Assembly: GCA_021292105.1 (NCBI GenBank)
Contig: CM037869.1
Location: forward strand, 50,155,234 to 50,219,233
Direction: 5' to 3'
Origin: Anadara kagoshimensis
Lineage: Eukaryota; Mollusca; Bivalvia; Arcoida; Arcidae
Length of the DNA: 64,000 bases
The translations under genes were made by a program, and so were the position numbers. Below the pieces are notes generated by a model that did not search any database, was not told where the DNA came from, and saw nothing but the letters and a program-made list of their open reading frames with translations. Shown here one piece after another: positions 8,501 to 56,402 of the stretch (position 1 is the stretch's first letter; each line of letters begins with the position of its first letter).

Positions 8501-11500
8501 GTAAGGTTTTGAACATATATTGACAATAACACAAAATATACCCTTTGCAATATGCAATAGCCCAAAATGGTTCCCTTGAATAACGCGTCGGTTGGTATCT
8601 ATGAACAAACTTTTCTTTATATGAAATATATCATAAAATTGTCCTTTAAAATGTTTATAATGTATTTTAAGCTGAATTATGTACATCAAATAACCAACAT
8701 TTCCAAAAACAAAATACATTCAAATCAATGAATGTCGTCGATATTAAAAGAACCTATGGTTATTATTAAAAGGTACTCAAAATTACATATTATACAAGTC
8801 TTAATTTCACAGCACACGACGGTCGTTTCAGAATACAATTCTTCATCAGTAATGCTAGGACCAAAATTATGAAACCAAAATTGTTTCAATATGTTGAAAA
8901 GATATCAAAGGACAATAAATATATTTTACTATATTTAGCTAAGGAAATTCTTTGCATGAGAGAGTATCCCTTTAGTTTTGAGGAAATTCAAATTTTACCT
9001 AGCAACAAATTTAGACAATAGTATATTTCTGACAATAATACACAATTATTGCCTACTGAGTTTGTGATATCCTTGGGGCAAGAGCCACCCGCAGAGATAC
9101 CGGCTCCGTGGTTTAATATAATAACCAGTCATTTACCTCAAAATTCTGCTGATAACATTTTAATTGTTTTCGAAAGATATCGTTATCATCAACTTAGAAA
9201 TAATAATAAAAAAACATACAATCCATGTCCGAATCCAAATCCAGAGGCAAAATATAAAACTTTGGAACAGACAAGTTTGGTTAGACACGTGAACTTCCAC
9301 CAGGGAAGTGCTTTCTTAAAGTTTTAAATAAAATATAAGGTGGTGATATGTCCTATTATCAATGTATAAGACATATAACATCATACCCTATACTTTTTAA
9401 GAAGAAACATGCGCGTTGATAAAATATTCGCGATTTTCACGGTGGCGTTTGTTCCGCGAAAATATCCTCTCAGCGAAAATTTCTTATTTTCATAGGTACA
9501 ATTTCCCTCAATTTAGAACCGTAAAAGTATCTTGCAGCAAAAAAGTTTGTACAGCGAAGTAGGCTTCTTGCAAATAAATTGTTGACCCAGGGATATTGCA
9601 AGCCTAGGCTTAACAAGGCCCTCAAAAAGTTTCATGGCCGTCATCACAGTATGTTGATAAGTTTGATGTCTCTGTGTCCAGGATTGCCTTGGATATATTT
9701 GACGTCTCATAGTTCCATGTTCCTTTCACACAATTTTGATTACACACGTGGCGGGTGTAGTAGCTAAACAGGAGGTACTTACCCTTCCGGAGCACCCGGC
9801 CTCACTTCCCTGGTTGAATTTAACGTGTCTAACCTAACTTGTCAGTTCCAAAGTTTTTACTTTGCTTCTGGATTGTGATTCGGAAATAGATTAGTATGTT
9901 TGTTTTTTATTAAATTAAAACCGCGAACCTTCCTGTCGCTGATGTGTCTTTTTCATAGTATTGTATGGTGGTTTGTTTTCTCACACTAAATAAGATTATC
10001 AACAACAAGCATACCAAATCCATGTTAAAACTTTGGACAATCTATGTGTCCTCTAAGAAACGTATCCAAACATTTTAAAGTTTCAGTTTTTACTTTGCCT
10101 TTAGAATTGATTAACACTGAGCGGTATGTTAGTAGTTGATGAACAATTTTGACATCATGGTAATTTCCCTTTTAAAATTGAATATTAAGAGCGATCATTG
10201 ACCACTTTTATAATAAACAACAAACAATAATCCATGTCCGAATCACAACCTAGAAGCAAAGTAAAAACTTTGAAACTTACAAATCAGGTTAGACACGTGA
10301 ACTTCAACCAGAAAAGTGAGGCCAGCTGTTCTGAAGGGGTAAGCAAAAGTTCCAAATTGCTGTTTGGCAAACTTTCACCAACCGAGGTTTTATTAGAAAT
10401 CTTTGATTTTATAAGTTTTTGATTATTACAACAACAACAATAATAAGGCTTTAAACATTCTTGCATATATAGTAGTTGAATAGACCAGTAGGAGTAGCCG
10501 TTATAATATTCTAATTATATTATTCAGACTAGACATTACCGACAACAATATTGTTATATTTGTTGTCCGTTTTTAAAGTTTCTTCTTTGCTTTCGATGTT
10601 CTGATTTGAACATAGAACATAAAAAAGTTTTATGGCCGTTATCACAGTATTGTTGATAAGTTTGATGTCTCTGTGTTCAGGATTGCCTTGGATATATTTG
10701 ACGTCTCATAGTTCCATGTTCCTTTCACACAATTTTGATTACACACGTGGCGGGTGTAGCTAGCTAAACGGGAGGTGCTTACCCTTCCGGAGCACCCGGC
10801 CTCACTTCCCTGGTGGAAGTTCACGTGTCTAACCTAACTTGTCAGTTCCAAAGTTTTTACTTTGCTTCAGGATTGTGATTCGGAAATGGATTAGTATGTT
10901 AGTTTTTGATTGGTATGCTTGTGCTTGAGTAGACTAATATTTTAACACAGGCATGTTATTTAATTAGTTGTATATCAAGTACGATGGTCAAGACATATAT
11001 CGGCCTTCTATTTGTTTATAAAACAACAATAAAAATAATTGACATAGGTTAACAACAGTGACCTGTCCATTTGACCTTTCATTAGGAATGTCCATATATA
11101 TAGGAGGGTCCATCCGGTAATGGGTAGTTAATACATATACACATCGACCATGATTACATGTGTTCACATGATATGACGAAATATACACGCGTGATCCCAA
11201 TCACTTAAATTTACTCCTCCATTATGAATATTTAAATCAAAGATCAAGCGGACAGGTCGTTATTGTTTGCCTATATCGGCATATAATAAATCAATAAAGT
11301 TATTGATAACTAACGGTCATACAGTTGTAAATAATGTCAATATTTGTCTAGAACATACATCACATTTATTTTGTAAATACGTTATTGACTGTGACGTGAA
11401 GAATGAAACTGAAATTACTTCTGAAACATTTATTGTTGTAAAACAAATAACAATTATAAAACAAAATATTGAACTGTACAAGTCCTTTGTTGTTATTATT

Positions 11501-18616: not shown

Positions 18617-18900
18617 AAACCAAAAACAAACATACTAATCCATATCCGAATCACAATCCAGAAGCAAAGCAAAAACTTTGGAACTGACAAGTTAGGATAG
18701 ACACGTGAACTTCCACCAGGGAATTGAGGCCGGATGTTCCGGAAGGGTAAGCATCTCCTGTTTAGCTAGCTACACCCGCCACGTTGTAATCAAATTTGTG
18801 TGAAAGGAACATGGAACTATGAGACGTCAAATATATCCAGGGCAATCCTGAACACAGAGACATCAAACTTATCAACAATACTGCGATGACGGCCATAAAA
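18617..18900 (+). repeat. F1 arm, left member of the reference inverted pair
   Basis: Reference copy of family F1. Order of blocks: AAAAACAAACATACTAATCC end; CCGAATCACAATCCAGAAGC; AACTTTGGAACTGACAAG; GACACGTGAACTTCCACCAG; CCGGAAGGGTAAGC; ACACCCGCCACG; GAACATGGAACTATGAGACG; CCAGGGCAATCCTG; GACGGCCATAAAA. The same blocks recur inverted at 19245-19605. The unit is non-coding. With outward-facing identical ends and no gene it fits a long-inverted-repeat (foldback or MITE-like) DNA element. I see no convincing target-site duplication, and the superfamily is unknown. Confidence 0.75.
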
Positions 18901-19244
18901 CGTATATAAAAGCAATTTCTGTAGGAGTGAAACGATTAATCGCTATTATGGTGAACCGCGATTCAGACCCCTCATTATTTGTTACTGGATTTCTGTTCGA
19001 TTCTTTTTCGTTTATTTTTTCCAAATATCCATGTATTACCGAAGTGCTTAAAACAGCCTGACTGATAAGTCAATTCTTATATCATTACATAGTCGTTATT
19101 TATCGATATAACCAATCAGAATGAGTTTCATTCCACATCAAGATATTAAGACAAGTTGTTAACAAAAGACAAACCAGCAACAAAACGGTGACTCTCTCTT
19201 ATTTTTTGGTATCGCTACTAAGGTTAGAAAAATGGCACTAAACT

Positions 19245-19605
19245 AGGTTGCTTGCAAATAAATTATTGACTCAGGGATATTGCAAGCCTAGGCTTATCAA
19301 GGCCCTCAAAAAGTTTTATGGCCGTCATCACAGTATTGTTGACAAGTTTGATGTCTCTGTGTCCAGGATTAATATCATTATTGCCCTGGATATACTTGAC
19401 GTCTCATAGTTTCATGTTCCTTTCACACAATTTTGATTACACATGTGGCGGGTGTAGCTAGCTAAACAGGAGAAACTTACCCTTCCGGAGCACGCAGCCT
19501 CACTTCCCTGGTGGAAGTTCACGTGTCTAATCTAACTTGTCAGTTCCAAAGTTTTTATTTTGCTTCTGGATTGTGATTCGGATATGGATAAGTATGTTTG
19601 TTTTT
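19245..19605 (-). repeat. F1 arm, right member of the reference inverted pair
   Basis: Reverse complement of the 18617 arm, including the inner GGTTGCTTGCAAATAAATTA and CAAGGCCCTCAAAAAG blocks, ending GATAAGTATGTTTGTTTTTT. A small duplication of an ATTG-containing word is visible at 19367-19384. Confidence 0.75.
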
Positions 19606-20224
19606 TTATTACAGAGCAATATTGAAGGCGATATTAAAAAGTTTTAATACAAAGTAAAGAGAAGTCAGATCTCGATTACAACAGACCACAATACAGCTTG
19701 GGTTTGTTTTCACAATACAGAATTACTTCCTTACCAAATTTCATTACATGGATGTGAAATAAGAGTCCTTACTAGACTTAAGACATATATTTAAATGATA
19801 AGATAATTAGAGATATTAAAATGTTAAATCAGATTTTTTTCTTTTAAAAAATGAATATTCGAAACTAATCGAAAATAAGCGAATCGCAAGGTCTAAAATC
19901 GAAAATCGAATCGCACCGCGAGATGGCCGAATCGTTACACCCCCCACTTACTGTCTAGATAACTAGACACCCGCAACTTGTGTAATTTCGTTAACATTAG
20001 CAAATCGATTGGATCCTACTATATGTTCCAAATGAAAGGTCAAGCGGAAAGGTCAGTTTTGCTTTCCTATATAAAGTACATCTATACATACAGCATGATA
20101 GTGACAATGTAGTTATCAAGTAATTATTATATCAGACAATGAAGTCATACATAGCACTAATTAATTCTCCATATAGCATAAAATACAATTTTTATTTTTT
20201 TATATGTTTAATTTTACGGATAAA
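19606..20224. other. Gene-free stretch
   Basis: Holds a TCGAAAATCGAATCG-like low-complexity patch near 19850-19930 and an AAAGGTCAAGCGGAAAGGTC word near 20036, related to sequence near 11240. No gene seen. Confidence 0.4.
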
Positions 20225-22692: not shown

Positions 22693-22975
22693 TAAGAAGC
22701 AAGTTTTATGGCCGTCATCACAGTATTGTTGATAAGTGTGATGTCTCTGTGTCCAGGATTGCCCTGGATATATTTGACGTCTCACAGTTCCATATTCCTT
22801 TCACACAATTAGGATAACACACGTGACGGGTGTAGCTAGTAAGACGGGAGGTGCTTACCCTTCCGGAGCACCCGGTGTAACTTCGCGTGTTTAACCTAAC
22901 TTGTTAGTTTTTTTTAGTTTTTTTTATGGTTCTGGGTTGCAATTCAAACATGGATTACGTATGTTTTTTTTTTTT
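22693..22975 (-). repeat. F1 arm, single, - orientation
   Basis: Reverse-complement F1 arm from GCAAGTTTTATGGCCG, with a deletion between the CACCCGG and GTAACTTCGCGTG blocks, ending in a long T run near 22960-22980. No inverted partner within 2 kb. Confidence 0.7.
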
Positions 22976-23120
22976 TTTTATAAAATTGGCGAATGGTAGA
23001 TCTAACCCCCTGGATAAATTAAACCCCCTGAATTAGTAAGCTATTGCCATGTACATGTGATTCAGTTGCAAAACGATTTGTACCATTGTAATACCGAAGC
23101 AATAATTATAAAGAGAAATA

Positions 23121-26380: not shown

Positions 26381-26631
26381 CTAGCATTTTTTTTGTGGTT
26401 ACTGTATCATATTTTACACCTCCATGTGACTGAATATTTATATTAGTTAAAATGACCAATATTGAAACAATGGAAGTTTATAACAGTGAATACTTATTGC
26501 TATACAGCATTGTTTAAGAAATTTATGAAGGAAATTTAAAAATGCTTAATTTCACGTATACATTTAATTTATAGTAATTTTTAATTCAATAACTCTGTCT
26601 GTTTCAGTCTCTTCAAGTATATTCTCTGTGT

Positions 26632-26744
26632 CATGTGCTACTTTTGAATTATATTATTTCATAAAAATTCAAAACTTTTGTTTTTACATTTCTATTGAAA
26701 TAATTGAATTTTTATGAAATAATATAATTCAAAAGTAGCACATG
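26632..26744. repeat. Perfect 41-bp-arm hairpin
   Basis: CATGTGCTACTTTTGAATTA at the left edge returns as its exact complement at the right edge, with arms of about 41 bp around a 31-bp loop. Could be a small foldback element. Confidence 0.75.
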
Positions 26745-26905
26745 GCATCTGTAAAGGTGTCTTTAGTTGAGTTAGACATTGGACATACTTGGGGCTCTGT
26801 GAGTCAGCCTGGTCAGTATTATATCACTCGGTCATCCCCGGAGGTTAAACCCCTTACCATCCCTTATTATCCCTTACCCATTGCCATTCTTCTTATTTTA
26901 CAGCC

Positions 26906-27025
26906 AGTGGAATTCGATCCTAGGGAGATTGGCTAGTAGAGATAATGCTGTAACAAAGGAAGACAGTCTCTAATCACACCGACTAAAGACGGTCAAAATA
27001 AGCAGAAATACTCCAGTTACGAAGG
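26906..27025. repeat. 120-bp direct repeat, right copy
   Basis: Near-identical to 26261-26380, ending just before the satellite-filled foldback element. Confidence 0.7.
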
Positions 27026-27140
27026 TTCGAAGCTTGATTAGTTTAATCAATTGATAAGTCAAAATTTGAATTTTGCATTATTTGAGATATATATTGTGAA
27101 TTTAAAGTTGAAATGTCGAAAATACAAAAAAAAAAAGATA

Positions 27141-27410
27141 GGTAAAGTTAGCTACTTGTAGAAGAAAAGTTAGCTACTAGTAGCCAGTTACTTGTGGAAG
27201 AAAAGTTAGCTACTAGTAGCCAGTTACTTGTTAGAAAAGCAGTTGATTACTTTGAAAAAATATCATCTATTTAGTATTTGTACACATAACTACCTACTAA
27301 CGAATTAGATTTTATGGATAAAAACTTCCGCAAAACTACAAACAATTTCTTGTACCAGGAATGTAGTCCCGATATTTGTGAATGTGAATAACATTCCAGA
27401 CGAGTAGCTG
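27141..27410. repeat. Left inverted arm of the foldback element
   Basis: Pairs with 39777-40060. Contains two AGTTAGCTACTAGTAGCCAG units (the GCTACTAGTAGC core is itself palindromic) and a unique part ending CATTCCAGACGAGTAGCTGG, where the reversed satellite monomer starts. The right arm has an extra ~28-bp sub-repeat. Confidence 0.8.
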
Positions 27411-27636
27411 GGTATTTATTTTTAAGATAATCAAAATTCAAATATAGCATGATGAAGTATATTCAATTCTGCATCCACTGATACCAAATATTCAAACACT
27501 CAAGCTTCAATACGCTCAAATACGCTTCTACAAACGGGAAAGGGGGGTGCAAAAACGAGTAGGTTCAAGTGTAATTTCCATTCTTTTTCACATTCAGGAC
27601 GAGTAGCTGGGTATTTATTTTTAAGATATTTAAAAT
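27411..27636 (-). repeat. Reversed satellite monomer next to the left arm
   Basis: One monomer in the opposite orientation to the rest of the array (reading TTCTGCATCCACTGATACCA and CAAGCTTCAATACGC on the + strand). Orientation switches at about 27637, where TTAAGATATTTAAAATT abuts ACACTTCAGCATACCCG. Confidence 0.75.
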
Positions 27637-30600
27637 TACACTTCAGCATACCCGTTTTTGCACCCCCCCTTTTCCGTTTGTGGAAGCGTATTTGAGCGTA
27701 TTGAAGCTTGAATGTTAGAATATTTGGTATCAATGGACGCAGAATTGAATATACTTCATCATGATATGCTTGAATCTTCAATATCTTGAAAAAATATACC
27801 CAGCTACTCGTCCTGAATGTGAAAAATGATAGAAATTGCATTAGAACCTACCCGTACACTCACCCCCTCCTTTGTGGAAGCGTATTTGAGCGTATTTGAA
27901 GCTTGAATGTTTGAATATTTGGTATCAATGGATGCAGAATCATTATACTACATCATCATATGCTTGAATGTTCAATATCTTGAAAATAAATACCGAGCTA
28001 CTCGTCCTGAATGTGAAAAATGATAGAAATTGCATTAGAACCTACCCGTACACTCACCCCCTCCTTTGTGGAAGTGTATTTGAGCGTATTGAAGCTTGAA
28101 TGTTTGAATATTTGGTATCAATGGATGCAGAATTCATTATACTTCATCATGATATGCTTGAATGTTCAATATCTGAAAATAAATACCCAGCTACTCGTCC
28201 TGAATGTGAAAAATGATAGAAATTACATTAGAACCTACCCGTACACTCACCCCCCTCCTTTGTGGAAGCGTATTTGAGCGCATTGAAGCTTTAATGTTTG
28301 CATATTTGGTATCAATGGATGCAGAATTGAATATACTTCATCATGATATATTTGAATTTTGAATATCTTAAAAATATATACCCAGCTACTCGTCCTGAAT
28401 GTGAAAAATCATGGAAATTACACTTGAACCTACCCGTTTTTGCATCCCCCGTCCCGTTTGTGGAAGCGTATCTGTGCGTATTGAAGCTTGAATGTTTGAA
28501 TATTTGGTATCAATGGATGCAGAATTGAATATACTTCATCATGATATATTTGAATTTTGAATATCTTAAAAATAAATACCCAGCTACTCGTCCTGAATGT
28601 GAAAAATCATGGAAATTACACTTGAACCTACCCGTTTTTGCATCCCCCCGTCCCGTTTGTGGAAGCGTATCTGTGCGTATTGAAGCTTGAATGTTAGAAT
28701 ATTTGGTATCAATGGATGCAGAATTGAATATACTTCGTCATGATATGCTTGAATTTTGAATATCTTAAAAATAAATACCCAGCTACTCGTCCTGAATGTG
28801 AAAAACCATGTAAATTGCATTAGAACCTACCCTTACACTCCCCCCCTCCTTTGTGGAAGCGTATTTGAGCGTATTGAAGCTTGAATGTTTGAATATTTGG
28901 TATCAATGGATGCAGAATTGATTATACTTCATCATGATATGCTTGAATGTTCAATATCTTGAAAATAAATACCCAGCTACTCGTCCTGAATGTGAAAAAT
29001 GATAGAAATTACATTAGAACCTACCCGTACACTCACACCCCTCCTTTGTGGAAGCGTATTTGAGCGCATTGAAGCTTTAATGTTTGCATATTTGGTATCA
29101 ATGGATGCAGAATTGAATATACTTCATCATGATATATTTGAATTTTGAATATCTTAAAAATAAATACCCAGCTACTCGTCCTGAATGTGAAAAATCATGG
29201 AAATTACACTTGAACCTACCCGTTTTTGCATCCCCCCGTCCCGTTTGTGGAAGCGTATCTGTGCGTATTGAAGCTTGAATGTTTTGAATATTTGGTATCA
29301 ATGGATGAAGAATTGAATATACTTCATCATGATATATTTGAATTTTGAATATCTTAAAAATAAATACCCAGCTACTCGTCCTGAATGTGAAAAATCATGG
29401 AAATTACACTTGAACCTACCCGTTTTTGCATCCCCCCGTCCCGTTTGTGGAAGCGTATCTGTGCGTATTGAAGCTTGAATGTTAGAATATTTGGTATCAA
29501 TGGATGCAGAATTGAATATACTTCGTCATGATATGCTTGAATTTTGAATATCTTAAAATAAATACCCAGCTACTCGTCCTGAATGTGAAAAACCATGTAA
29601 ATTGCATTAGAACCTACCCTTACACTCCCCCCCCTCCTTTGTGGAAGCGTATTTGAGCGTATTGAAGCTTGAATGTTTGAATATTTGGTATCAATGGATG
29701 CAGAATTGAATATACTTCATCATGATATGCTTGAATTTTGAATATCTTAAAAATAATACCCAGCTACTCGTCCTGAATGTGAAAAACCATGTAAATTGCA
29801 TTAGAACCTACCCTTACACTCCCCCCTCCTTTGTGGAAGCGTATTTGAGCGTATTGAAGCTTGAATGTTTGAATATTTGGTATCGATGGATGCAGAATTG
29901 ATTATACTTCATCATGATATGCTTGAATGTTCAATATCTTGAAAATAAATACCCAGCTACTCGTCCTGAATGTGAAAAATGATAGAAATTACATTAGAAC
30001 CTACCCGTACACTCACCCCCCTCCTTTGTGGACGCGTATTTGAGCGCATTGAAGCTTTAATGTTTGCATATTTGGTATCAATGGATGCAGAATTGAATAT
30101 ACTTCATCATGATATATTTGAATTTTGAATATCTTAAAAATAAATACCCAGCTACTCGTCCTGAATGTGAAAAATCATGGAAATTACACTTGAACCTACC
30201 CGTTTTTGCATCCCCCCGTCCCGTTTGTGGAAGCGTATCTGTGCGTATTGAAGCTTGAATGTTTGAATATTTGGTATCAATGGATGAAGAATTGAATATA
30301 CTTCATCATGGTATATTTGAATTTTGAATATCTTAAAAATAAATACCCAGCTACTCGTCCTGAATGTGAAAAATCATGGAAATTACACTTGAACCTACCC
30401 GTTTTTGCATCCCCCCGTCCCGTTTGTGGAAGCGTATCTGTGCGTATTGAAGCTTGAATGTTAGAATATTTGGTATCAATGGATGCAGAATTGAATATAC
30501 TTCGTCATGATATGCTTGAATTTTGAATATCTTAAAAATAAATACCCAGCTACTCGTCCCGAATGTGAAAAACCATGTAAATTGCATTAGAACCTACCCT

Positions 30601-33600
30601 TACACTCCCCCCCTCCTTTGTGGAAGCGTATTTGAGCGTATTGAAGCTTGAATGTTTGAATATTTGGTATCAATGGATGCAGAATTGAATATACTTCATC
30701 ATGATATATTTGAATTTTGAATATCTTAAAAATAAATACCCAGCTACTCGTCCTGAATGTGAAAAATCATGGAAATTACACTTGAACCTACCCGTTTTTG
30801 CATCCCCTCGTCCCGTTTGTGGAAGCGTATCTGTGCGTATTGAAGCTTGAATGTTAGAATATTTGGTATCAATGGATGTAGAATTGAATATACTTCATCA
30901 TGATATATTTGAATTTTGAATATCTTAAAAATAATACCCAGCTACTCGTCCTGAATGTGAAAAATCATGGAAATTACACTTGAACCTACCCGTTTTTGCA
31001 TCCCCCCGTCCCGTTTGTGGAAGCGTATCTGTGCGTATTGAAGCTTGAATGTTAGAATATTTGGTATCAATGGATGCAGAATTGAATATACTTCGTCATG
31101 ATATGCTTGAATTTTGAATATCTTAAAAATAAATACCCAGCTACTCGTCCTGAATGTGAAAAACCATGTAAATTGCATTAGAACCTACCCTTACACTCCC
31201 CCCCTCCTTTGTGGAAGCGTATTTGAGCGTATTGAAGCTTGAATGTTTGAATATTTGGTATCAATGGATGCAGAATTGAATATACTTCATCATGATATAT
31301 TTGAATTTTGAATATCTTAAAAATAAATACCCAGCTACTCGTCCTGAATGTGAAAAATCATGGAAATTACACTTGAACCTACCCGTTTTTGCATCCCTCG
31401 TCCCGTTTGTGGAAGCGTATCTGTGCGTATTGAAGCTTGAATGTTAGAATATTTGGTATCAATGGATGTAGAATTGAAATACTTCATCATGATATATTTG
31501 AATTTTGAATATCTTAAAAATAAATACCCAGCTACTCGTCCTGAATGTGAAAAATCATGGAAATTACACTTGAACCTACCCGTTTTTGCATCCCCCGTCC
31601 CGTTTGTGGAAGCGTATCTGTGCGTATTGAAGCTTGAATGTTAGAATATTTGGTATCAATGGATGCAGAATTGAATATACTTCGTCATGATATGCTTGAA
31701 TTTTGAATATCTTAAAAATAAATACCCAGCTACTCGTCCTGAATGTGAAAAACCATGTAAATTGCATTAGAACCTACCCTTACACTCCCCCCCTCCTTTG
31801 TGGAAGCGTATTTGAGCGTATTGAAGCTTGAATGTTTGAATATTTGGTATCAATGGATGCAGAATTGAATATACTTCATCATGATATGCTTGAATTTTGA
31901 ATATCTTAAAAATAAATACCCAGCTACTCGTCCTGAATGTGAAAAATCATGGAAATTACACTTGAACCTACCCGTTTTTGCATCCCCTCGTCCCGTTTGT
32001 GGAAGCGTATCTGTGCGTATTGAAGCTTGAATGTTAGAATATTTGGTATCAATGGATGTAGAATTGAATATACTTCATCATGATATATTTGAATTTTGAA
32101 TATCTTAAAAATAAATACCCAGCTACTCGTCCTGAATGTGAAAAATCATGGAAATTACACTTGAACCTACCCGTTTTTTGCATCCCCCCGTCCCGTTTGT
32201 GGAAGCGTATCTGTGCGTATTGAAGCTTGAATGTTAGAATATTTGGTATCAATGGATGCAGAATTGAATATACTTCGTCATGATATGCTTGAATTTTGAA
32301 TATCTTAAAAATAAATACCCAGCTACTCGTCCTGAATGTGAAAAACCATGTAAATTGCATTAGAACCTACCCTTACACTCCCCCCCTCCTTTGTGGAAGC
32401 GTATTTGAGCGTATTGAAGCTTGAATGTTTGAATATTTGGTATCAATGGATGCAGAATTGAATATCTTCATCATGATATTTGAATTTTGAATATCTTAAA
32501 AATAAATACCCAGCTACTCGTCCTGAATGTGAAAAATCATGGAAATTACACTTGAACCTACCCGTTTTTGCATCCCTCGTCCCGTTTGTGGAAGCGTATC
32601 TGTGCGTATTGAAGCTTGAATGTTAGAATATTTGGTATCAATGGATGTAGAATTGAATATACTTCATCATGATATATTTGAATTTTGAATATCTTAAAAA
32701 TAAATACCCAGCTACTCGTCCTGAATGTGAAAAATCATGGAAATTACACTTGAACCTACCCGTTTTTGCATCCCCCGTCCCGTTTGTGGAAGCGTATCTG
32801 TGCGTATGAAGCTTGAATGTTAGAATATTTGGTATCAATGGATGCAGAATTGAATATACTTCGTCATGATATGCTTGAATTTTGAATATCTTAAAATAAA
32901 TACCGCTACTCGTCCTGAATGTGAAAAACCATGTAAATTGCATTAGAACCTACCCTTACACTCCCCCCCCCCTCCTTTGTGGAAGCGTATTTGAGCGTAT
33001 TGAAGCTTGAATGTTTGAATATTTGGTATCAATGGATGCAGAATTGAATATACTTCATCATGATATATTTGAATTTGAATATCTTAAAAATAAATACCCA
33101 GCTACTCGTCCTGAATGTGAAAAATCATGGAAATTACACTTGAACCTACCCGTTTTTGCATCCCCTCGTCCCGTTTGTGGAAGCGTATCTGTGCGTATTG
33201 AAGCTTGAATGTTAGAATATTTGGTATCAATGATGTAGAATTGAATATACTTCATCATGATATATTTGAATTTTGAATATCTTAAAAATAAATACCCAGC
33301 TACTCGTCCTGAATGTGAAAAATCATGGAAATTACACTTGAACCTACCCGTTTTTGCATCCCCCCGTCCGTTTGTGGAAGCGTATCTGTGCGTATTGAAG
33401 CTTGAATGTTAGAATATTTGGTATCAATGGATGCAGAATTGAATATACTTCGTCATGATATGCTTGAATTTTGAATATCTTAAAAATAAATACCCAGCTA
33501 CTCGTCCTGAATGTGAAAAACCATGTAAATTGCATTAGAACCTACCCTTACACTCCCCCCCTCCTTTGTGGAAGCGTATTTGAGCGTATTGAAGCTTGAA

Positions 33601-36600
33601 TGTTTGAATATTTGGTATCAATGGATGCAGAATTGAATATACTTCATCATGATATATTGAATTTGAATATCTTAAAAATAAATACCCAGCTACTCGTCCT
33701 GAATGTGAAAAATCATGGAAATTACACTTGAACCTACCCGTTTTTGCATCCCCCCGTCCCGTTTGTGGAAGCGTATCTGTGCGTATTGAAGCTTGAATGT
33801 TAGAATATTTGGTATCAATGGATGCAGAATTGAATATACTTCGTCATGATATGCTTGAATTTTGAATATCTTAAAAATAAATACCCAGCTACTCGTCCTG
33901 ATGTGAAAAAACCATGTAAATTGCATTAGAACCTACCCTTACACTCCCCCCCTCCTTTGTGGAAGCGTATTTGAGCGTATTGAAGCTTGAATGTTTGAAT
34001 ATTTGGTATCAATGGATGCAGAATTGAATATACTTCATCATGATATGCTTGAATTTTGAATATCTTAAAAATAAATACCCAGCTACTCGTCCTGAATGTG
34101 AAAAACCATGTAAATTGCATTAGAACCTACCCTTACACTCCCCCCCTCCTTTGTGGAAGCGTATTTGAGCGTATTGAAGCTTGAATGTTTGAATATTTGG
34201 TATCGATGGATGCAGAATTGATTATACTTCATCATGATATGCTTGAATGTTCAATATCTTGAAAATAAATACCCAGCTACTCGTCCTGAATGTGAAAAAT
34301 GATAGAAATTACATTAGAACCTACCCGTACACTCACCCCCCTCCTTTGTGGACGCGTATTTGAGCGCATTGAAGCCTTAATGTTTGCATATTTGGTATCA
34401 ATGGATGCAGAATTGAATATACTTCATCATGATATATTTGAATTTTGAATATCTTAAAAATAAATACCCAGCTACTCGTCCTGAATGTGAAAAATCATGG
34501 AAATTACACTTGAACCTACCCGTTTTTGCATCCCCCCGTCCCGTTTGTGGAAGCGTATCTGTGCGTATTGAAGCTTGAATGTTTGAATATTTGGTATCAA
34601 TGGATGAAGAATTGAATATACTTCATCATGGTATATTTGAATTTTGAATATCTTAAAAATAAATACCCAGCTACTCGTCCTGAATGTGAAAAATCATCAG
34701 GAAATTACACTTGAACCTACCCGTTTTGCATCCCCCCGTCCCGTTTGTGGAAGCGTATCTGTGCGTATTGAAGCTTGAATGTTAGAATATTTGGTATCAA
34801 TGGATGTAGAATTGAATATACTTCGTCATGATATGCTTGAATTTTGAATATCTTAAAAATAAATACCCAGCTACTCGTCCCGAATGTGAAAAACCATGTA
34901 AATTGCATTAGAACCTACCCTTACACTCCCCCCTCCTTTGTGGAAGCGTATTTGAGCGTATTGAAGCTTGAATGTTTGATATTTGGTATCATGGATGCAG
35001 AATTGAATATACTTCATCATGATATATTTGAATTTTGAATATCTTAAAAATAAATACCCAGCTACTCGTCCTGAATGTGAAAAATCATGGAAATTACACT
35101 TGAACCTACCCGTTTTTGCATCCCCTCGTCCCGTTTTGGAAGCGTATCTGTGCGTATTGAAGCTTGAATGTTAGAATATTTGGTATCAATGGATGTTAGA
35201 ATTGAATATACTTCATCATGATATATTTGAATTTTGAATATCTTAAAAATAAATACCCAGCTACTCGTCCTGAATGTGAAAATCATGGAAATTACACTTG
35301 AACCTACCCGTTTTTGCATCCCCCCGTCCCGTTTGTGGAAGCGTATCTGTGCGTATTGAAGCTTGAATGTTAGAATATTTGGTATCAATGGATGCAGAAT
35401 TGAATATACTTCGTCATGATATGCTTGAATTTTGAATATCTTAAAATAAATACCCAGCTACTCGTCCTGAATGTGAAAAACCATGTAAATTGCATTAGAA
35501 CCTACCCTTACACTCCCCCCCCTCCTTTGTGGAAGCGTATTTGAGCGTATTGAAGCTTGAATGTTTGAATATTTGGTATCAATGGATGCAGAATTGAATA
35601 TACTTCATCATGATATATTTGAATTTTGAATATCTTAAAAATAAATACCCAGCTACTCGTCCTGAATGTGAAAAATCATGGAAATTACACTTGAACCTAC
35701 CCGTTTTTGCATCCCTCGTCCCGTTTGTGGAAGCGTATCTGTGCGTATTGAAGCTTGAATGTTAGAATATTTGGTATCAATGGATGTAGAATTGAATATA
35801 CTCATCATGATATATTTGAATTTTGAATATCTTAAAAATAAATACCCAGCTACTCGTCCTGAATGTGAAAAATCATGGAAATTACACTTGAACCTACCCG
35901 TTTTTGCATCCCCCCGTCCCGTTTGTGGAAGCGTATCTGTGCGTATTGAAGCTTGAATGTTAGAATATTTGGTATCAATGGATGCAGAATTGAATATACT
36001 TCGTCATGATATGCTTGAATTTTGAATATCTTAAAAATAAATACCCAGCTACTCGTCCTGAATGTGAAAAACCATGTAAATTGCATTAGAACCTACCCTT
36101 ACACTCCCCCCCTCCTTTGTGGAAGCGTATTTGAGCGTATTGAAGCTTGAATGTTTGAATATTTGGTATCAATGGATGCAGAATTGAATATACTTCATCA
36201 TGATATATTTGAATTTTGAATATCTTAAAAAAATACCCAGCTACTCGTCCTGAATGTGAAAAATCATGGAAATTACACTTGAACCTACCCGTTTTTGCAT
36301 CCCCCGTCCCGTTTGTGGAAGCGTATCTGTGCGTATTGAAGCTTGAATGTTTGAATATTGGTATCAATGGATGAAGAATGATATACTTCATCATGGTATA
36401 TTTGAATTTTGAATATCTTAAAATAAATACCCAGCTACTCGTCCTGAATGTGAAAAATCATGGAAATTACACTGAACCTACCCGTTTTTGCATCCCCCCG
36501 TCCCGTTTGTGGAAGCGTATCTGTGCGTATTGAAGCTTGAATGTTAGAATATTTGGTATCAATGGATGCAGAATTGAATATACTTCGTCATGATATGCTT

Positions 36601-39600
36601 GAATTTTGAATATCTTAAAAATAAATACCCAGCTACTCGTCCCCGAATGTGAAAAACCATGTAAATTGCATTAGAACCTACCCTTACACTCCCCCCCTCC
36701 TTTGTGGGAAGCGTATTTGAGCGTATTGAAGCTTGAATGTTTGAATATTTGGTATCAATGGATGCAGAATTGAATATACTTCATCATGATATTTGAATTT
36801 TGAATATCTTAAAATAAATACCCAGCTACTCGTCCTGAATGTGAAAAATCATGGAAATTACACTTGAACCTACCCGTTTTTTTGCATCCCCTCGTCCCGT
36901 TTGTGAAGCGTATCTGTGCGTATTGAAGCTTGAATGTTAGAATATTTGGTATCAATGGATGTAGAATTGAATATACTTCATCATGATATATTTGAATTTG
37001 AATATCTTAAAAATAAATACCCAGCTACTCGTCCTGAATGTGAAAAATCATGGAAATTACACTTGAACCTACCCGTTTTTGCATCCCCCGTCCCGTTTGT
37101 GGAAGCGTATCTGTGCGTATTGAAGCTTGAATGTTAGAATATTTGGTATCAATGGATGCAGAATTGAATATACTTCGTCATGATATGCTTGAATTTTGAA
37201 TATCTTAAAAATAAATACCCAGCTACTCGTCCTGAATGTGAAAAACCATGTAAATTGCATTAGAACCTACCCTTACACTCCCCCCCTCCTCTTGTGGAAG
37301 CGTATTTGAGCGTATTGAAGCTTGAATGTTTGAATATTTGGTATCAATGGATGCAGAATTGAATATACTTCATCATGAATATATTTGAATTTTGAATATC
37401 TTAAAAATAATACCCAGCTACTCGTCTGAATGTGAAAAATCATGGAAATTACACTTGAACCTACCCGTTTTTGCATCCCTCGTCCCGTTTGTGGAAGCGT
37501 ATCTGTGCGTATTGAAGCTTGAATGTTAGAATATTTGTATCAATGGATGTAGAATGAATATACTTCATCATGATATATTTGAATTTGAATCTCTTAAAAA
37601 TAAATACCCAGCTACTCGTCCTGAATGTGAAAAATCATGAAATTACACTTGAACCTACCCGTTTTTTGCATCCCCCCGTCCGTTTGTGGAAGCGTATCTG
37701 TGCGTATTGAAGCTTGAATGTTAGAAATATTTGGTATCAATGGTGCAGAATTGAATATACTTCGTCATGATATGCTTGAATTTTGAATATCTTAAAAATA
37801 AATACCCAGCTACTCGTCCTGAATGTGAAAAACCATGTAAATTGCATTAGACCTACCTTACACTCCCCCCTCCTTTATGGAAGCGTATTTGAGCGTATTG
37901 AAGCTTGAATGTTTGAATATTTGGTATCAATGGATGCAGAATTGAATATACTTCATCATGATATATTTGAATTTTGAATATCTTAAAAATAAATACCCAG
38001 CTCTCGTCCTGAATGTGAAAAATCATGGAAATTCACTTGAACCTACCCGTTTTTGCATCCCCTCGCCCGTTTGTGGAAGCGTATCTGTGCGTATTGAAGC
38101 TTGAATGTTAGAATATTTGTATCAATGGATGTAGAATTGAATATACTTCATCATGATATATTTGAATTTTGAATATCTTAAAATAAATCCCAGCTACTCG
38201 TCCTGAATGTGAAAAATCATGGAAATTACACTTGAACCTACCCGTTTTTGCATCCCCCCGTCCCGTTTGTGGAAGCGTATCTGTGCGTATTGAAGCTTGA
38301 ATGTTAGAATATTTGGTATCAATGATGCAGAATTGAATATACTTCGTCATGATATGCTTGAATTTTGAATATCTTAAAAATAAATACCCAGCTACTCGTC
38401 CTGAATGTGAAAAAACCATGTAAATTGCATTAGAACCTACCCTTACACTCCCCCCCCTCCTTTGTGAAGCGTATTTGACGTATTGAAGCTTGAATGTTTG
38501 AATATTTGGTATCAATGGATGCAGAATTGAATATACTTCATCATGATATATTTGAATTTTGAATATCTTAAAATAAATACCCAGCTACTCGTCCTGAAGT
38601 GAAAATCATGGAAATTACACTTGAACCTACCCGTTTTTGCATCCCCTCGTCCCGTTTGTGGAAGCGTATCTGTGCGTATTGAAGCTTGAATGTTAGAATA
38701 TTTGGTATCAATGGATGTAGAATTGAATATACTTCATCATGATATATTTGAATTTTGAATATCTTAAAAATAAATACCCAGCTACTCGTCCTGAATGTGA
38801 AAAATCATGGAAATTACACTTGAACCTACCCGTTTTTGCATCCCCCGTCCCGTTTGTGGAAGCGTATCTGTGCGTATTGAAGCTTGAATGTTAGAATATT
38901 TGGTATCAATGGATGCAGAATTGAATATACTTCGTCATGATATGCTTGAATTTTGAATATCTTAAAAATAAATACCCAGCTACTCGTCCTGAATGTGAAA
39001 AACCATGTAAATTGCATTAGAACCTACCCTTACACTCCCCCCCCCCCTCCTTTGTGGAAGCGTATTTGAGCGTATTGAAGCTTGAACGTTTGAATATTTG
39101 GTATCAATGGATGCAGAATTGAATATACTTCATCATGATATATTTGAATTTTGAATATCTTAAAAATAAATACCCAGCTACTCGTCCTGAATGTGAAAAA
39201 TCATGGAAATTACACTTGAACCTACCCGTTTTTGCATCCCCTCGTCCCGTTTGTGGAAGCGTATCTGTGCGTATTGAAGCTTGAATGTTAGAATATTTGG
39301 TATCAATGGATGTAGAATTGAATATACTTCATCATGATATATTTGAATTTTGAATATCTTAAAAATAAATACCCAGCTACTCGTCCTGAATGTGAAAAAT
39401 CATGGAAATTACACTTGAACCTACCCGTTTTTGCATCCCCCCGTCCCGTTTGTGGAAGCGTATCTGTGCGTATTGAAGCTTGAATGTTAGAATATTTGGT
39501 ATCAATGGATGCAGAATTGAATATACTTCGTCATGATATGCTTGAATTTTGAATATCTTAAAAATAAATACCCAGCTACTCGTCCTGAATGTGAAAAACC

Positions 39601-39790
39601 ATGTAAATTGCATTAGAACCTACCCTTACACTCCCCCCCCCTCCTTTGTGGAAGCGTATTTGAGCGTATTGAAGCTTGAACGTTTGAATATTTGGTATCA
39701 ATGGATGCAGAATTGAATATACTTCATCATGATATATTTGAATTTTGAATATCTTAAATATAAATACCCAGCTACTCGTCTGGAATGTTA
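27637..39790 (+). repeat. Satellite array, ~196-bp monomers, about 62 copies
   Basis: Monomer landmarks: GTATTGAAGCTTGAATGTT, GAATATTTGGTATCAATGG, ATACTTCATCATGATAT, TAAATACCCAGCTACTCGTC, CTGAATGTGAAAAA, GAACCTACCC, TTTGTGGAAGCG. Three classes differ in the segment before GGAAGCG: class A (GTTTTTGCATCCCCCCGTCC, ~199 bp), class B (CTTACACTCCCCCCCTCC, ~194 bp) and class C (GTACACTCACCCCCCTCC, mostly before 30.1 kb and again near 34.3 kb). The left-most monomers are the most diverged. The recurrent ~78-residue minus-strand frame (starting MQFTWFF) is a by-product of monomer periodicity. Confidence 0.95.
30572..39610 (+). repeat. Three-monomer (~590-bp) higher-order repeat
   Basis: The class-B landmark CCATGTAAATTGCATTAG occurs at about 30572, 31163, 31752, 32346, 32929, 33521, 33912, 34106, 34893, 35481, 36072, 36657, 37246, 37832, 38416, 39003 and 39599. 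Most steps are 583-596 bp; the exceptions are 391, 194 and 787 around 33.5-34.9 kb. Within a unit the order is class B, class A with GGATGTAGAATTG, then class A with ACTTCGTCATGATATGC. Confidence 0.85.
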
Positions 39791-40060
39791 TTTACATTCA
39801 AAAATATCGGGACTACATTCGTGGTACAAGAAATTGTTCGTAGTTTTGCGGAAGTTTTGATCCATAAAATTTAATTCGTTAGTAGGTTGCTATGTGTAGT
39901 AAATAGATGATATTTTTTCAAAGTAATCAACTGCTTTTTTAACAAGTAACTGGCTACTAGTAGCTAACTTTTCTTACACAAGTAACTGGCTACTAGTAGC
40001 TAACTTTTCTTCTACAAGTAGCCAATTACTAGTAGCCAGTTACTAGTAGCTAACTTTACC
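39777..40060. repeat. Right inverted arm of the foldback element
   Basis: Reverse complement of 27141-27410, with three CTAGTAGCTAACTTTTCTT or CTAGTAGCCAGTTACT sub-repeats at the outer end. Ends GTAGCTAACTTTACC. Confidence 0.8.
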
Positions 40061-40092
40061 TATCTATAGGCATTTCTACTGAGATTATCCGG

Positions 40093-47600: not shown

Positions 47601-50600
47601 GTTTGAAATATGTTTCAGATACAACAAGCTGCAGCTTTAGCAAAGACAGAACCAGAGAAGTATTGTAGTGAAATGTCCAAAAAATTCATGGTATAAATAT
47701 ATTCTATTTACATATTTTACATGTTTTATTAAACCAGAGTACACAGAGACCACAGATCTTCCTCAAGCTAACTGACAAACTTTCTCGCAATAGAATCTGC
47801 CCTGAGAGGGAATCAAACCTAGTCATTGAGAGATACTGTGATCTGTAAGCATGCACTTTAGACCAATTACCACAGAGGCCCAAAAATAGCTATTGAACTG
47901 TTTAAAAATAATCTTCCATGTGTAGACATTTATGGTTCCTGTTTCGCTAGTTATAAACATTTATAAAATATGGAAACATTTAAAAGCTTCCTCACACATG
48001 ATTTTATGGGTTAAGACATAATCACAAAATTTGGTTCTGTGTGTCATCTATTGGCATAGAAAACTACTGTGGTAGCTCAGTTGGTAGAGTGCTCGCTCCA
48101 TAAGTGGGAGGTTGTGGCCGGGACTGAACCAAGACTTGAAAGTGAGTAGTTACTGTTCTTTTGCCAAGCACTCGACGCCATTACTAAACAAAAGTCACAG
48201 TTCTTTTGGTTGGGAACTTAAAATAAACGAGGTCCCGTATCATGGTGGGCTTGGCACACTAAAGAACCCTGCTGTATAATGCCATCAGTGCAATGCACAG
48301 GCGAAATTTCTGCACTTTCACCTAAAGTTTTCAACATCTTGATATAAGTTAACTACTCTTGACTCCGATGTTTAACACCATTTCTCAACTCTACTCAACT
48401 ATTTGCACAGAAATAACAGAAAAATTTAATATGTCAACAGCGTTGAAGAATTTTGATGTCTGAGAAATGGCCCCTTTTTATTTCAGGATTTATTTACAAA
48501 GGCAGAAATCTCACACACAGACTATATAAGGACAACAGAAGAGAGACATGTCAAAGCTGTACAAGAATTTTGGGTATTGTATCAATGTTTACAATGTAGC
48601 ATTCTGGGTAGCTCAGCGGTAGAGCACTCGCCTATAATGTGGGAGGTCCCGGTTTCGATCCCCGGTCTGACCCTGCATATTTTTTCCCTTTCCTATTACA
48701 TTTGGGGGCTAGTCCAACCCTGGGAATTGACCCACCAACAGGTTGGCCCCAGGGTGGAACCTGGTGGTTTTGATTCAAGGGAGTTGAATTGAAAAAAAGG
48801 AAGGGAGGAATGTAGCCGTCTTGGTAGCTCAGTGGTAGAGCACTTGCCTATAGTGCAGGAGGTCCCTGGTTCGATTCCCCTTCCGACCCTGCATTTTTTC
48901 TCTTTTCTGTTACAACTATATCACATGTATATAGAAAAAATTGTTTTGTATAGAAATTAAGCAATTAGGTGTTAGTATGCAAGTAATGTAGCATTGCCTT
49001 TCATTTTTGTTCAGTCTATTGAGAAATAGCTTGAATGAAGACTGTATGTACACTTTGCACGAATCACAGGTAGTGGGTTTATGTAAAAAAGTGTACAGTC
49101 TTCATTCAAGTTATTACTCAATAGACCGAACAAAAATGAAAGGCAATGCTTATAATTAAATTACATAAATAAAGAGACCAAACGAACTAGGTCCTATCTA
49201 AAAAATTAAAAGTTTATTGAACAATTTACACCAATGTTGACAACAATGAAAAATGTACATGAATTTATTATCAGGTATCCATATTACACAAAATAAAGTC
49301 TACAGAGCTGCCAATTGACCTGCAACCCGCGGGTCCAGCCCTCATTTGGAAATAAAATATCCGCTGACCCACCAAGAAGGGGGCTGACCCGCAAATGATC
49401 ATAGAGTTTGAGCATTTGCAGTGTTCATTCATTACCACTCTAATTCACCTGTGATCACAGCCAATCTGAGTGATTACATGGGTGGATTAAGGATGTAGTG
49501 GATTAATTTTGTGCTGGTATCAGGTGAAAAATCACTATGTGTGTACTGTATCCATTATCCTAAGACATCGCATGACAATGCACCATATTTTTATATCTAA
49601 TTTTCAGTTCTTTTGGAAGGGATATACCCCCACCCCCTTTTTGGTGGATTTTGGTCATACCCGCAATTACATAAAATGGGGTTGGCAGCTCTGAGTCATT
49701 GTAAATGAGCAAATTACCATAATTTTTAAGCAAATCAGAATGCGTAAAAATGGTAAAATTTAATTATATATCAATATTTGCACAAAATTTTGTTCCCCAA
49801 CACTAGAAGGGGGTTTTACCGGAATAATTGCGAAATTCCGGAATAGTAAGACACTTTCCGTAATCTTTGGGAAAATCCGGAATATTTAGATCAATTCCAG
49901 AATTTTTAGACCAAATCCGAAATAATCGGACAAAATCTGGAATAATTGGTCAAAATCCGGAATAATAAGAATATTTTTACGGTAAATTTTACGGATTCTA
50001 AAATTCCGGCAAGTGTCTAATTATTACGGTAACTTGTCTGATTATTCCGGTAAAAGACTGATTATTACGGTAAAAATCTAATTATTCCGGCAAATGTCCA
50101 ATTATTACGGTAAAAAAAATTTAAAAAATTATTATTTTTTAGAAAATTTCCCGTAATAATTGGACATTTGCCGGAATAATTAGACTTTTCCGTAATAATC
50201 GGTCATTTTCCGGAATAATCAGACACTTACCGTAATTTTTAAATTACGGAAAACTTACCGTAACAAAATAGTCCAATTATTCCGGATTTTGCTTGATTAT
50301 TCCGGATTTTGCCTGATTATTCCGGATTTTACCGGTTTATTCCGGATTTTACCTGATTATTCCGGATCAATTTGGTTTATTCCGGATTTGGTCTGATTAT
50401 TCCGGATTTTCGCAATTATTCCGGTAAAACCCCCTTCTAGTGCAAGTCCAGGTTTTCTGCGTCAATTTTACATATTGCAGGCTTTGTCGCGTGACTCTGT
50501 CTTTTATTATGTCATATGAATATTGTAACATGGCTCGTCTGAAGACATCATCACTGTGTTGTTGTCATATTGCACTAGTTCTTATACCCATATACAAAAA

Positions 50601-53600
50601 CTATTGCAATATTTGTATATTGTGAGACAATATTTTTGAGATGAAATACTAGTGGGAAGTAAATGTAATTTATTTTGTTTTTGTTTTTAAAAGGTTTTTA
50701 AAGCTGAAAATTTGAAAGATTGTCTTTCGTTGACTCATTATTTGCCCTTGCTTAAGCCAATGTGCAGTTGACTCTGGACAATATTTTACCATTGACTGTC
50801 TAGAAATGGCGTTTATAGTGCTATAACTGCCAGTGCCGTGCAAAGCAAACCGAATAATGCATTATGATTAGTTTGCTTTGCACGGCAGTGGCAGTTAAAA
50901 CACTATAAACGCCATTTCTAGACAGTTCAATGGTTATATTTACATTTCCCATTTTTTGAAAATCTTATTTTGTATTTTAGTACTAAAAAACTTTAAAACA
51001 CTGTAGTGTACGACACATATTTCCAATCGCTGGAACAGCCAATCATTGACATCACGCCTATAACTGCAAGGAAGAGACGAGTGACGTCATTTTAGCAATG
51101 GCATTTATACTCCTATAACTGCCATCTGGTCTTAAACAAAGTTCAATACATTAATACATCACAAAATAATGTAAATATTTCACAATATCACTCATTTCAA
51201 TAACTCTATGTTATTGTTCATGTATAATTACCCCAATAATCCATACAATTAGCCAGTGTTATAAAAATCATATTATACATTTTTCCTTGATTAATAATGT
51301 CGTGCAATTGTTGTAATATAATGATGTAATATTTCAGTCAGAGTGACTTTTGATATGTTATATTGGATTTATTAAACTTGTTGAATACACAAGGCTGGTT
51401 GCATACAAATTTGTTCAACTTGTTTAAATTAAAATATGAGGACATTTAATATGCAGGGCTGGTTAAGAGTTGACGCATCATCGGCCATGCCCACAATGTT
51501 CCGACAAATGGTCCGCATGATCGATTTACGTGCAAAAAGAATGAAAACTTGACCTAAATCGTGCCTTTTAATGATGTCACTGACACTTGTATGTCACTTG
51601 TTGCCGTGACACTGCTTTGGTACTGTGATGGCAGCCAGTGTCGGAACATAATAGGCATGACCGACAATGCGCCAATTGGTCAGTACTTTAATTATTGACC
51701 AAACCAGTTGTAAATTCTGGTTTTAACAGGACAATACTGGTCAGTTACTGGACATTGAACCAGTCAATTGTTCAAGTATTTAAATATTGACCAACCCAGT
51801 GGAAAATAATTAATACTGTTTTTAACTTGTCAATACTGGTCATTACTGGTCAGTTTTCAATACTGGTCTATTCAAAAATTTTTCACTGGTCAATATCCTC
51901 AATACGAAATCAAAGAATAAACTTACTTAACATTTGTTTAATGTTGTGAAGGTTTTCAGTCTGACCTGCTTTAAACATGCAGGGATTTTGGGTATCCACA
52001 GGGTCCGGTAAAGGGACCCATTGCCAATGCAAAAAACATACATTTTTCCCAATTCTGTAGTAAAAAAATCCCAATTAGCTACGTTTATCAATTTAAAAAA
52101 AAAATCACAAGATCATAAAAATCATATTCGGAGTATATCGCTTTCTGATAACGATTTTGCTCTATATTAACCCACATTTTGCTAGATGATTTATATAGAG
52201 ACAAAAGAGACAGCACTATTTTGCTGTGAAACTTATATAATTTGTTCAATTACCAGTATTCTAGTGGTCTAGAATTTTTAATATGTTGTTGTGATTTTTC
52301 CCAAAACTACATTTTTGTTGAGCATTTTCCCAATTTCATCCTAAGGTCCTTTTCCCAAAAAGGTCAGAAAAATCCCTGACATGTATAATAATTTATGGGT
52401 AGCAGTGTATAGCCATCACTATAGATAGTTCCCATGGACCTCTAGCAGAGGAATTTTTCAGTAGGGTGGTTGCCATTTTGTCAGGCAGTCTATATCATTT
52501 ATCTATCTATTTTTACCAAATTTATTAATTTTTGAATTATTGTTTTTCAAAAAGTAATTGAAATGTCAATAAAAATTTTAAATGATTTGGTATATCTTAT
52601 AAGATTTTTGTCCCCATAACAACGATGTGACAATAAATTTTATATACCCTATATAATTAAAATTTTTAGAAAAAAGTAATAAGACTCAATTTCTTATGCC
52701 TACCAAAATGGCTGCTACTTTACCTATAAAGTGGACATTGTGACGTCACATGGGAACTATCTATAGTTTTATGTCTAAGAGTGACCATTGAAATTATAGT
52801 ATACTGACCAGTAATGACCACTAACAACAAAATTATATTGACAAGTATGGATTGGTATTGACCAGTTCATTTTGGGAGTATTGACTTTGGCAGTTTTAAC
52901 TAATTTTTAACCAGCCAACAGTGAGAATATGTTGAATAATTTTGTATTATTGTCAGAAATATAGTATAATTGTCTAAATTTCCTGCAAGTTAAAATTTAA
53001 AATTCCTCAAAAACTAAGGTATACTCCCTCATGCAAAGTATTTTCTTAGCTTAATTTTGTAAAATATATTTTGGTCCTTTGGGTAGCTTTTCAACATCTT
53101 CAAAATAATTTTGGTTTCATAATTTTGGTCCAAGGACTACTGATGAGGAATTGTATCGTAAAATTAAAACTGGTATAATATGTAATTGAAAGGGAAGCAA
53201 CTCTTCTAAAACTTTATATTTCAGACAAGATTTCTTGTATTTCTATTACTGGTAGCTCTTATGGCTACTGATTCTTACTATCTTAGAAATACTTTCAAAA
53301 AGTAACCTGTTTTAGCAAATTTGTGAAAAAGATACAAAATGTACTTCAGAAAGGACTATATTTTTCACAAATTTTGAAATTTTGGCTACGGTATTAAAAT
53401 TTTATGTTTGTGAAAACCTAGCAATGATTTTGGTTGCCAACAAATAAAATCACCCAAAACAGTGATTTACTAGCAAATTAAATCTATTTGTCCTTACCTA
53501 CAATATGTTGGATATTGTCACAATATAACATTTTTGCAATAAGGATCTTAAACTGTTGCAAGCATGTTATGCATTTTGCTGTACTTTAGAACTTCAAATT

Positions 53601-56397: not shown

Positions 56398-56402
56398 ATA
56401 AA

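Follow-up and report, generated by a model that had tools for sequence, protein, structure and literature searches.

How does a tandem array of about 62 satellite monomers come to lie inside a unit whose two ends are inverted copies of one another? The question is raised by a 64,000-nucleotide stretch of Anadara kagoshimensis DNA (assembly GCA_021292105.1, contig CM037869.1, here C13:50155234-50219233; the whole stretch is called the window), taken from a 1.115-Gb genome of 36 contigs; the DNA analysed has 33.6% GC. The original prediction, made from the window alone, was that a non-autonomous foldback element contained tandem repeats which had expanded to about 62 copies. Our analysis supports this foldback interpretation of the 12.9-kb unit, with corrections to the target site duplication (TSD) and to the place of the monomers. 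We consider it highly likely that the unit belongs, as one copy, to a dispersed family of non-autonomous foldback DNA transposons, and that individual arms of this family can grow in place after insertion.

Both the array and its inverted arms are real. In the window, Tandem Repeats Finder reported 61.9 copies at 27633-39788 (consensus period 194, matches 90%), and self-comparison gave a reverse match of 491 bp between 27148-27637 and 40025-39545 (91%, E=0). The 21-mer AGATAGGTAAAGTTAGCTACT was found, with up to three mismatches, only at 27136-27156(+) and 40045-40065(-), where 100 shuffles lead one to expect 0, and the copy spans 12,930 bp end to end. The arms had been described as exact or near-identical. 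Their outer parts are 94.65% identical outside gaps (230/243), with 41 gap columns, and a second extraction gave 95.55% for the terminal inverted repeats (TIRs) over 247 sites; the right end carries 28 bp, two 14-bp units, that are absent from the left end. The array had been placed between the arms, and this part of the description did not stand. Inverted homology extends about 245 bp further inward, through 1.25 inverted monomers on the left, so the array is the expanded right arm. The left arm is made of a TIR and 1.25 inverted monomers, the right arm of a TIR and about 62 monomers, and the TIR-monomer junction is common to both. The direct monomers include 61 complete ones, 190-201 bp long, and the monomer anchors number 62 direct and 2 inverted. 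Two blocks of ten monomers in the right arm have a mean identity of 0.998, and the left edge of this array has a divergent, older mixed pattern (coordinates in Table 1). The palindrome GCTACTAGTAGC had five matches in the window, every one in the arms (expected 0.02), and by its sequence it is a possible transposase-binding motif. Comparison of the outer TIR with the monomer gave no similarity above 300 shuffles, and on this ground we ruled out that the monomer derives from the outer TIR, a proposal of the type made for the Tetris element. No ribozyme or other RNA family was found in the monomer at gathering threshold. A lax RNA-family search of 26900-28600 gave six weak matches, all under gathering scores; the best, to a Wolbachia small RNA model (E 0.00018), lies on the head-to-head palindrome and was taken for chance.

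Table 1. Parts of the foldback copy in the window and its immediate flanks (positions count from the first letter of the window; TIR, terminal inverted repeat; TSD, target site duplication).
Feature	Position	Strand	Remarks
Left TIR, outer domain	27136..27390	+	starts AGATAGGTAAAG; 36-bp subterminal repeats; lacks the 28-bp (2 x 14 bp) stretch of the right end and of the other seven loci's ends (first genome search)
Left arm array, about 1.25 inverted monomers, continuous with left TIR	27391..27637	-	92.5% to mirror 39545-39789, gaps excluded
Centre, head-to-head switch from last inverted to first direct anchor	27609..27797	.	
Right arm array, about 62 direct monomers	27638..39789	+	190-201 bp; abb trimer over most of the length
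Ten-monomer block m11-m20, first copy	29757..31722	+	
Ten-monomer block m33-m42, second copy	34076..36041	+	
Right TIR	39790..40065	-	mirrors left TIR
Palindrome GCTACTAGTAGC in subterminal repeats	27173..27184, 27209-27220, 39953-39964, 39989-40000; 40039-40050	.	last with one mismatch
Left flank, place of would-be 9-bp TSD	27127..27135	+	AAAAAAAAA; mismatches right flank
Right flank, place of would-be 9-bp TSD	40066..40074	+	ATAGGCATT; mismatches left flank

The arms were neither confined to this locus nor wholly unpaired elsewhere. A genome search with the arm alone found it dispersed, with 43 matches (best 40 of 677 first-look candidates scored). The 16-bp end GGTAAAGTTAGCTACT had 224+225 exact matches in the genome, and its reversed control 0/0. 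For AGATAGGTAAAGTTAGCTA, searched in 20-base patterns made of the 19-base end and each of the four possible bases before it, there were 426 exact ends genome-wide, preceded by A, G, C or T in 164, 64, 68 and 130 matches, and controls again gave 0/0. Pairing was analysed for the 287 exact ends on C1-C13, where neighbouring ends less than 30 kb apart were convergent in 88 cases, of the same orientation in 8 and divergent in none. The two ends of a convergent pair lie between 46 bp and 28,923 bp apart, with 13 pairs below 150 bp, 22 at 150-300 bp and 11 at 12 kb or more, and the window copy is the tenth longest of the 88. Interior samples of large pairs on C4, C6, C7 and C9 contained monomers in 6/6 cases, and in the two large pairs sampled from both sides the left-hand monomers were inverted and the right-hand ones direct. 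An exact 26-mer of the end had no match in the collections viral_contigs and genome_contigs, nor had an exact 25-mer of the monomer in viral_contigs. At C1:5006141-5081587 and C3:38291227-38357096 several family ends are clustered, mostly in the same orientation; these are perhaps segmental duplications. Miniature copies at L059, L061, L064 and other places have common flanks and the TSD ATAATAGAA, and 22 of the 26 right-flank matches of this type on C1-C13 abut a listed exact end; such miniature copies therefore travel inside a larger repeat.

The ends had been read as GGTAAAG bounded by TA. The ends of all eight loci of the first search start AGATAGGTAAAG, so that AGATA belongs to the element, and other copies have TSDs of 8-10 bp; on these two grounds TA was ruled out as the TSD. 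We tried lengths of 7-11 on 26 end pairs; L059, L061 and L064 share flanks and represent a single event. A TSD was present in 23 pairs, 20 of them exact (16 of 9 bp, three of 10 bp and one of 8 bp) and three with one mismatch. None was found in the remaining three, namely the window copy, L063 and L077/L078, the last of which is counted among the 26 and is probably mis-paired, as a further end lies at C7:44029926. Tc1/mariner elements duplicate a TA target site, and this group was rejected on the same evidence. The original prediction had also called for empty sites, and two copies provided them, both paralogous. With eight joined flanks as queries (best 40 of 4340 candidates scored), those of L028 matched across the junction at 39 places (93-96%), which span 169-176 bases of a query of about 180 and so have small gaps, and those of L018 at one (C2:58183444, 93%). 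The other six gave no empty-site match among these candidates, and the miniature copies with shared flanks, used as query, gave half matches only (best 40 scored). Dispersed copies with a TSD, as in foldback families, are thus a property of the family and not of the window copy itself.

To describe the arms we studied the window and the pieces L009-L028 (n=21), picked from the best arm matches. All 11 pieces with a centre had inverted monomers, a single flip and then direct monomers, so that copies with monomers in both arms are built as TIR, inverted monomers, head-to-head centre, direct monomers, TIR. The number of monomers in the arms differs from copy to copy: anchors left and right were 2/62 in the window, 5/8 in L009, 4/4 in L018, 5/2 in L023, 15/8 in L025, 4/2 in L026 and 11/8 in L028, and, in the long copies, 23 and at least 24 in L022, 6 and at least 43 in L024, and at least 44 and 5 in L027. 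Long TIRs that bear tandem repeats, and whose length varies by arm and by copy, are what defines a foldback element, and this family has them. Central anchor spacing ranged over 87-345 bp, the aligned centres differed in all 11, and no conserved middle domain was found across them, which suggests that the centre of the palindrome is often remade. Genome-wide, a monomer 21-mer had 1428+1036 matches (control 0), and the exact-to-fuzzy ratio of the sampled arrays suggests a total of about 2,960 monomers. The first 100 matches listed form 25 monomer clusters. In 23 of these, at least one monomer lay no more than 10 kb from an exact end placed on the expected side, as did 0.24% of 20,000 random draws. 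None of the clusters had an end on the wrong side only, and those at C1:17903943 and C2:15346259 had no exact end at this range.

The monomers fall into two classes, a and b. We cut 413 monomers from the 21 pieces and compared them all; a short motif, allowed up to two mismatches, assigned 248 to a and 149 to b and left 16 unassigned. Distances are 9.3% between a and b, 5.1% within a and 4.3% within b, and a monomers differ by 2.1% within an element versus 5.5% between elements. Clustering of whole monomers into five groups gave one of 246 a and 1 b and another of 148 b and 0 a, unassigned monomers besides; the remaining three groups are single outliers, and for this reason two to four groups miss the a/b split. 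Short arms are mixtures of both classes. Long arms have words of their own, and the class strings read abb repeated in the window, aabb in L016, abaab in L021, mainly one b per five monomers in L017, ab in both arms of L022 and in the left arm of L028, and a alone in L024 right, L027 left and L009 right. Lag peaks exceeded the 95% shuffle limit in six of ten arms tested (3 in the window, 4 in L016, 5 in L017 and L021, 2 in each arm of L022); L024 and L028 (10 monomers) just reach the limit, and L025 and L027 had no peak above it. The top lag of L021, 23, reflects a block duplication, and that of the right arm of L022 is 14. The 3-period statistic of the trimer core of the window array was 0.044, against a maximum of 0.024 in 5,000 shuffles. 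The long arms are homogeneous tandem arrays with higher-order repeats, as satellite DNA is. The word ab in both arms of L022 and in L028 may be inherited rather than independent.

Monomers of the long arms are homogenised locally. The nearest neighbour of a monomer lay in the same arm in 319/325 cases for arms of at least 22 monomers, in 29/45 for arms of 7-14 and in 10/43 for arms of up to 5, where it lay in another element in 26/43; truncated pieces make some arms look shorter than they are (ends of C6a, C11a and C17a). In long arms the median nearest distance was 0 within the arm versus 0.5-3.6% to other elements. For timing we used the TIR divergence of the ten elements having both TIRs: 0 in C11a, 0.69% in L025 and L028, 1.0% in C6a, 1.5% in L023, 1.8% in L026, 3.1% in C17a, 3.8% in L009, 4.45% in the window copy and 4.8% in L018, with a mean of 3.2% between different elements. 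In the left arm of L028, monomers of the same class differ by 0.21% versus 0.69% for the TIRs, and hence this arm is as young as the insertion or younger.

On this evidence, a transposase supplied in trans, which the TSDs and empty sites point to, would move copies bearing few, heterogeneous monomers, at least one of them, L025, apparently with 15+8 anchors. After insertion, unequal exchange or replication slippage could lengthen an arm in place to a satellite array of kilobase size, as the block duplication and the divergent edge suggest, and the growing arm would fix one of several higher-order patterns from the two monomer classes that it had inherited. In the window, it would be the right arm that grew, to about 62 monomers with the word abb, while the left arm stayed at about 1.25. 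Each giant arm is then probably an independent satellite birth from a common a/b seed, different higher-order words having been fixed in place by chance amplification, with no need for a centromere role.

Several observations weigh against in-place growth within a dispersed foldback family. The pieces form a biased sample, and not every copy has the full build: all monomers of the short copies L060 and L067 are direct, the sole anchor of L006 is an inverted one, seven miniature copies have no monomers, the pieces of L019 and L020 contain a single end, and that of L016 has 1000 N before the array, possibly an assembly gap. Without an exact partner within 30 kb were 111 of the 287 exact ends on C1-C13. 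Long arms have more same-arm neighbours available by chance, and the contrast in distance is therefore better evidence than the neighbour counts. Array lengths rest on one assembly. Searches for Mutator-like element (MULE) and Merlin transposases found none linked to family ends: none of the 53 matches to PF10551 (MULE) on C1-C13 lies inside a convergent pair, and the end motif was absent within about 1.5 kb of all 30 MULE loci. To the same side belong the absence of a TSD from the window copy, its TIR divergence, which exceeds the mean between elements, and the large C11a copy, all three taken up below.

The rival that survives best concerns the window copy alone. Chances are evenly balanced that this copy is a recombinant of two insertions, by ectopic exchange or at an inversion breakpoint, or else an old copy with a remade end. 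Its unmatched flanks and divergent TIRs would be explained in this way, as would a left end without the two 14-bp units. Against it, the reciprocal left end, sought as AGGCAT followed by 0-3 bases and AGATAGGTAAAG, had 0 matches, a result that a lost or mutated partner would leave as well.

Giant copies might also transpose as giants, their arrays having grown once before insertion and then spread by transposition. Two copies speak for this. The 14 monomers of the left arm of L025 differ by 5.8% within class, versus 0.69% for its TIRs, and so this arm is older than the insertion; it would appear that L025 transposed as a copy of about 4.9 kb, together with its heterogeneous array of 15+8 anchors, unless conversion of the TIRs reset the clock. 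C11a (C11:19676031-19686909) measures 10.9 kb; its TSD is perfect, its two TIRs show no difference over 274 sites, and either its growth is very recent or it was already giant when it moved. Arms descended from one mobile giant should share array and pattern, however, and the copy-specific patterns, with the nearly exclusive same-arm neighbours of long arms, count against this account, which we regard as unlikely in general.

That an unrelated inverted-repeat element invaded or captured a pre-existing satellite is a rather improbable reading. The lack of similarity between outer TIR and monomer would permit a single capture, and the miniature copies without monomers and the two clusters without an exact end could be taken in the same sense. 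Against it, 23 of the 25 listed clusters adjoin an element end in the right orientation, and both arms of the window copy share the TIR-monomer junction. A single ancient capture of the monomer is compatible with these data, while repeated invasion is not. An assembly artefact or one-off inverted duplication, for which one may cite the single assembly, the difficulty of assembling such repeats and the run of N in L016, is scarcely credible, and as regards the family as a whole it is refuted by hundreds of ends, 88 convergent pairs, TSDs in 23 of 26 pairs and empty sites.

Returning to the foldback family with arms grown in place, the size of its TSDs bears on the transposase. Mutator elements have TSDs of about 8-11 bp, mostly 9 bp, and those of the present family are of this kind; by this measure the transposase would most likely be Mutator-like. 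Passages of PMC4079207 and PMC3169594 back this Mutator-type range. The genome has 76 matches to PF10551, one of which, on C5, lies 4.6 kb outside an end. Inside a 5.4-kb pair, L079 has 4 inverted and 15 direct anchors, and inspection, without a library search, recognised no frame as a transposase. Merlin elements have terminal GG and a TSD of 8 or 9 bp (PMC8101967); the present ends begin AGATAGG instead of GG, and there are only 4 matches to PF12762, all with stops, which makes membership in Merlin unlikely.

Among known systems, and on our comparison of descriptions, none is closer than Tetris of Drosophila virilis in architecture and in the notion that a satellite is born within a foldback, and Tm1 of root-knot nematodes comes closest in its TSDs and in how its TIRs are built. 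According to the available parts of PMC4079207, Tetris is a non-autonomous foldback with an outer flanking domain and satellite-size repeats (TIR-220) in the TIR, which were amplified inside the element into arrays of up to 66 copies; its TSDs are of 8-10 bp, no autonomous copy was found, and the related miniature inverted-repeat transposable element (MITE) DAIBAM has the same ends. Unlike the present TIR and monomer, which have no similarity exceeding that of shuffled sequence, TIR-220 shares a 37-bp stretch with the Tetris flanking domain, and Tetris has a middle domain, whereas our 11 centres run from monomer to monomer, each different. The same parts of that paper do not mention copy-specific higher-order patterns, which the present family has. 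Tm1 Mutator/Foldback elements, as covered by the portion of PMC3169594 at hand, have composite TIRs with tandem repeats of about 14 bp in variable number, TSDs of 8-10 bp, mostly 9 bp, in 45/53 elements, MITE-like members and arms of unequal length. They differ in the small size of their repeats, with 195-bp monomers or kilobase arrays unmentioned in that portion, in the Phantom-type transposase that some members encode and in the asymmetric 7-bp motifs of their ends. In the model of MITE-to-satellite conversion for miDNA4 of Xenopus, as outlined in the accessible part of a review (PMC12628747), a small inverted-repeat element has tandem repeats in its interior that likewise lengthen into arrays, but these arrays lose the terminal repeats, while the present arrays stand beside intact ends in 23 of 25 clusters among the matches listed. 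In the Pacific oyster, too, short satellite arrays are borne and dispersed by mobile elements, there of the Helitron/Helentron type (PMC8268682, in part). Helitrons differ in their end boxes and lack long inverted arms, in contrast to the TIRs and TSDs seen here. The original prediction had suggested an undescribed family. No description of it was found in the literature searched, largely at the level of titles, whereas the general idea is already known from Tetris. Neither did the literature searched, beyond whose reach most subscription papers lie, describe a foldback with internal higher-order patterns that differ from copy to copy.

Conclusions on how satellites are born and how higher-order repeats originate are usually drawn from single old arrays. 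The present genome offers a graded series, from miniatures without monomers through copies with few mixed monomers to arms of dozens, and many copies can be dated by their own TIR pair and TSD. Such a series allows tests of when arrays grow, of whether they grow one arm at a time and of whether their patterns arise by chance. If the account given above is true, the family would be a replicated natural experiment, in which alphoid-like higher-order repeats arise repeatedly from a heterogeneous seed.

The window holds other repeats besides. A near-symmetrical inverted-repeat element of 642 bp at 49801-50442, with 20-bp subterminal repeats, CACTAGAAGGGGG at both ends and CAA on either side, we take by its look to be a non-autonomous CACTA-type foldback. 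A long interspersed nuclear element (LINE)-like element on the minus strand (57012-63275) has reverse transcriptase and endonuclease-like frames, and on either side of it stands a 35-bp tandem unit (56401-56654 and again 63442-64000). At 48457-48792 a frame with weak similarity to methionyl-tRNA synthetase (PF09334, E 0.0002) continues into sequence that looks like a tRNA (48607-48667), and the arrangement resembles an exon followed by a tRNA-derived short interspersed nuclear element. Many copies of a dispersed family of about 250-370 bp, in both orientations, occupy the first 23 kb (840-1221, 5959-6293, 7044-7329, 9546-9912, 10622-10911, 18618-18901, 19241-19615 and 22701-22978). Short near-perfect palindromes at 53840-54022, 50788-50934, 48990-49150 and 26629-26747 look like unrelated MITEs.

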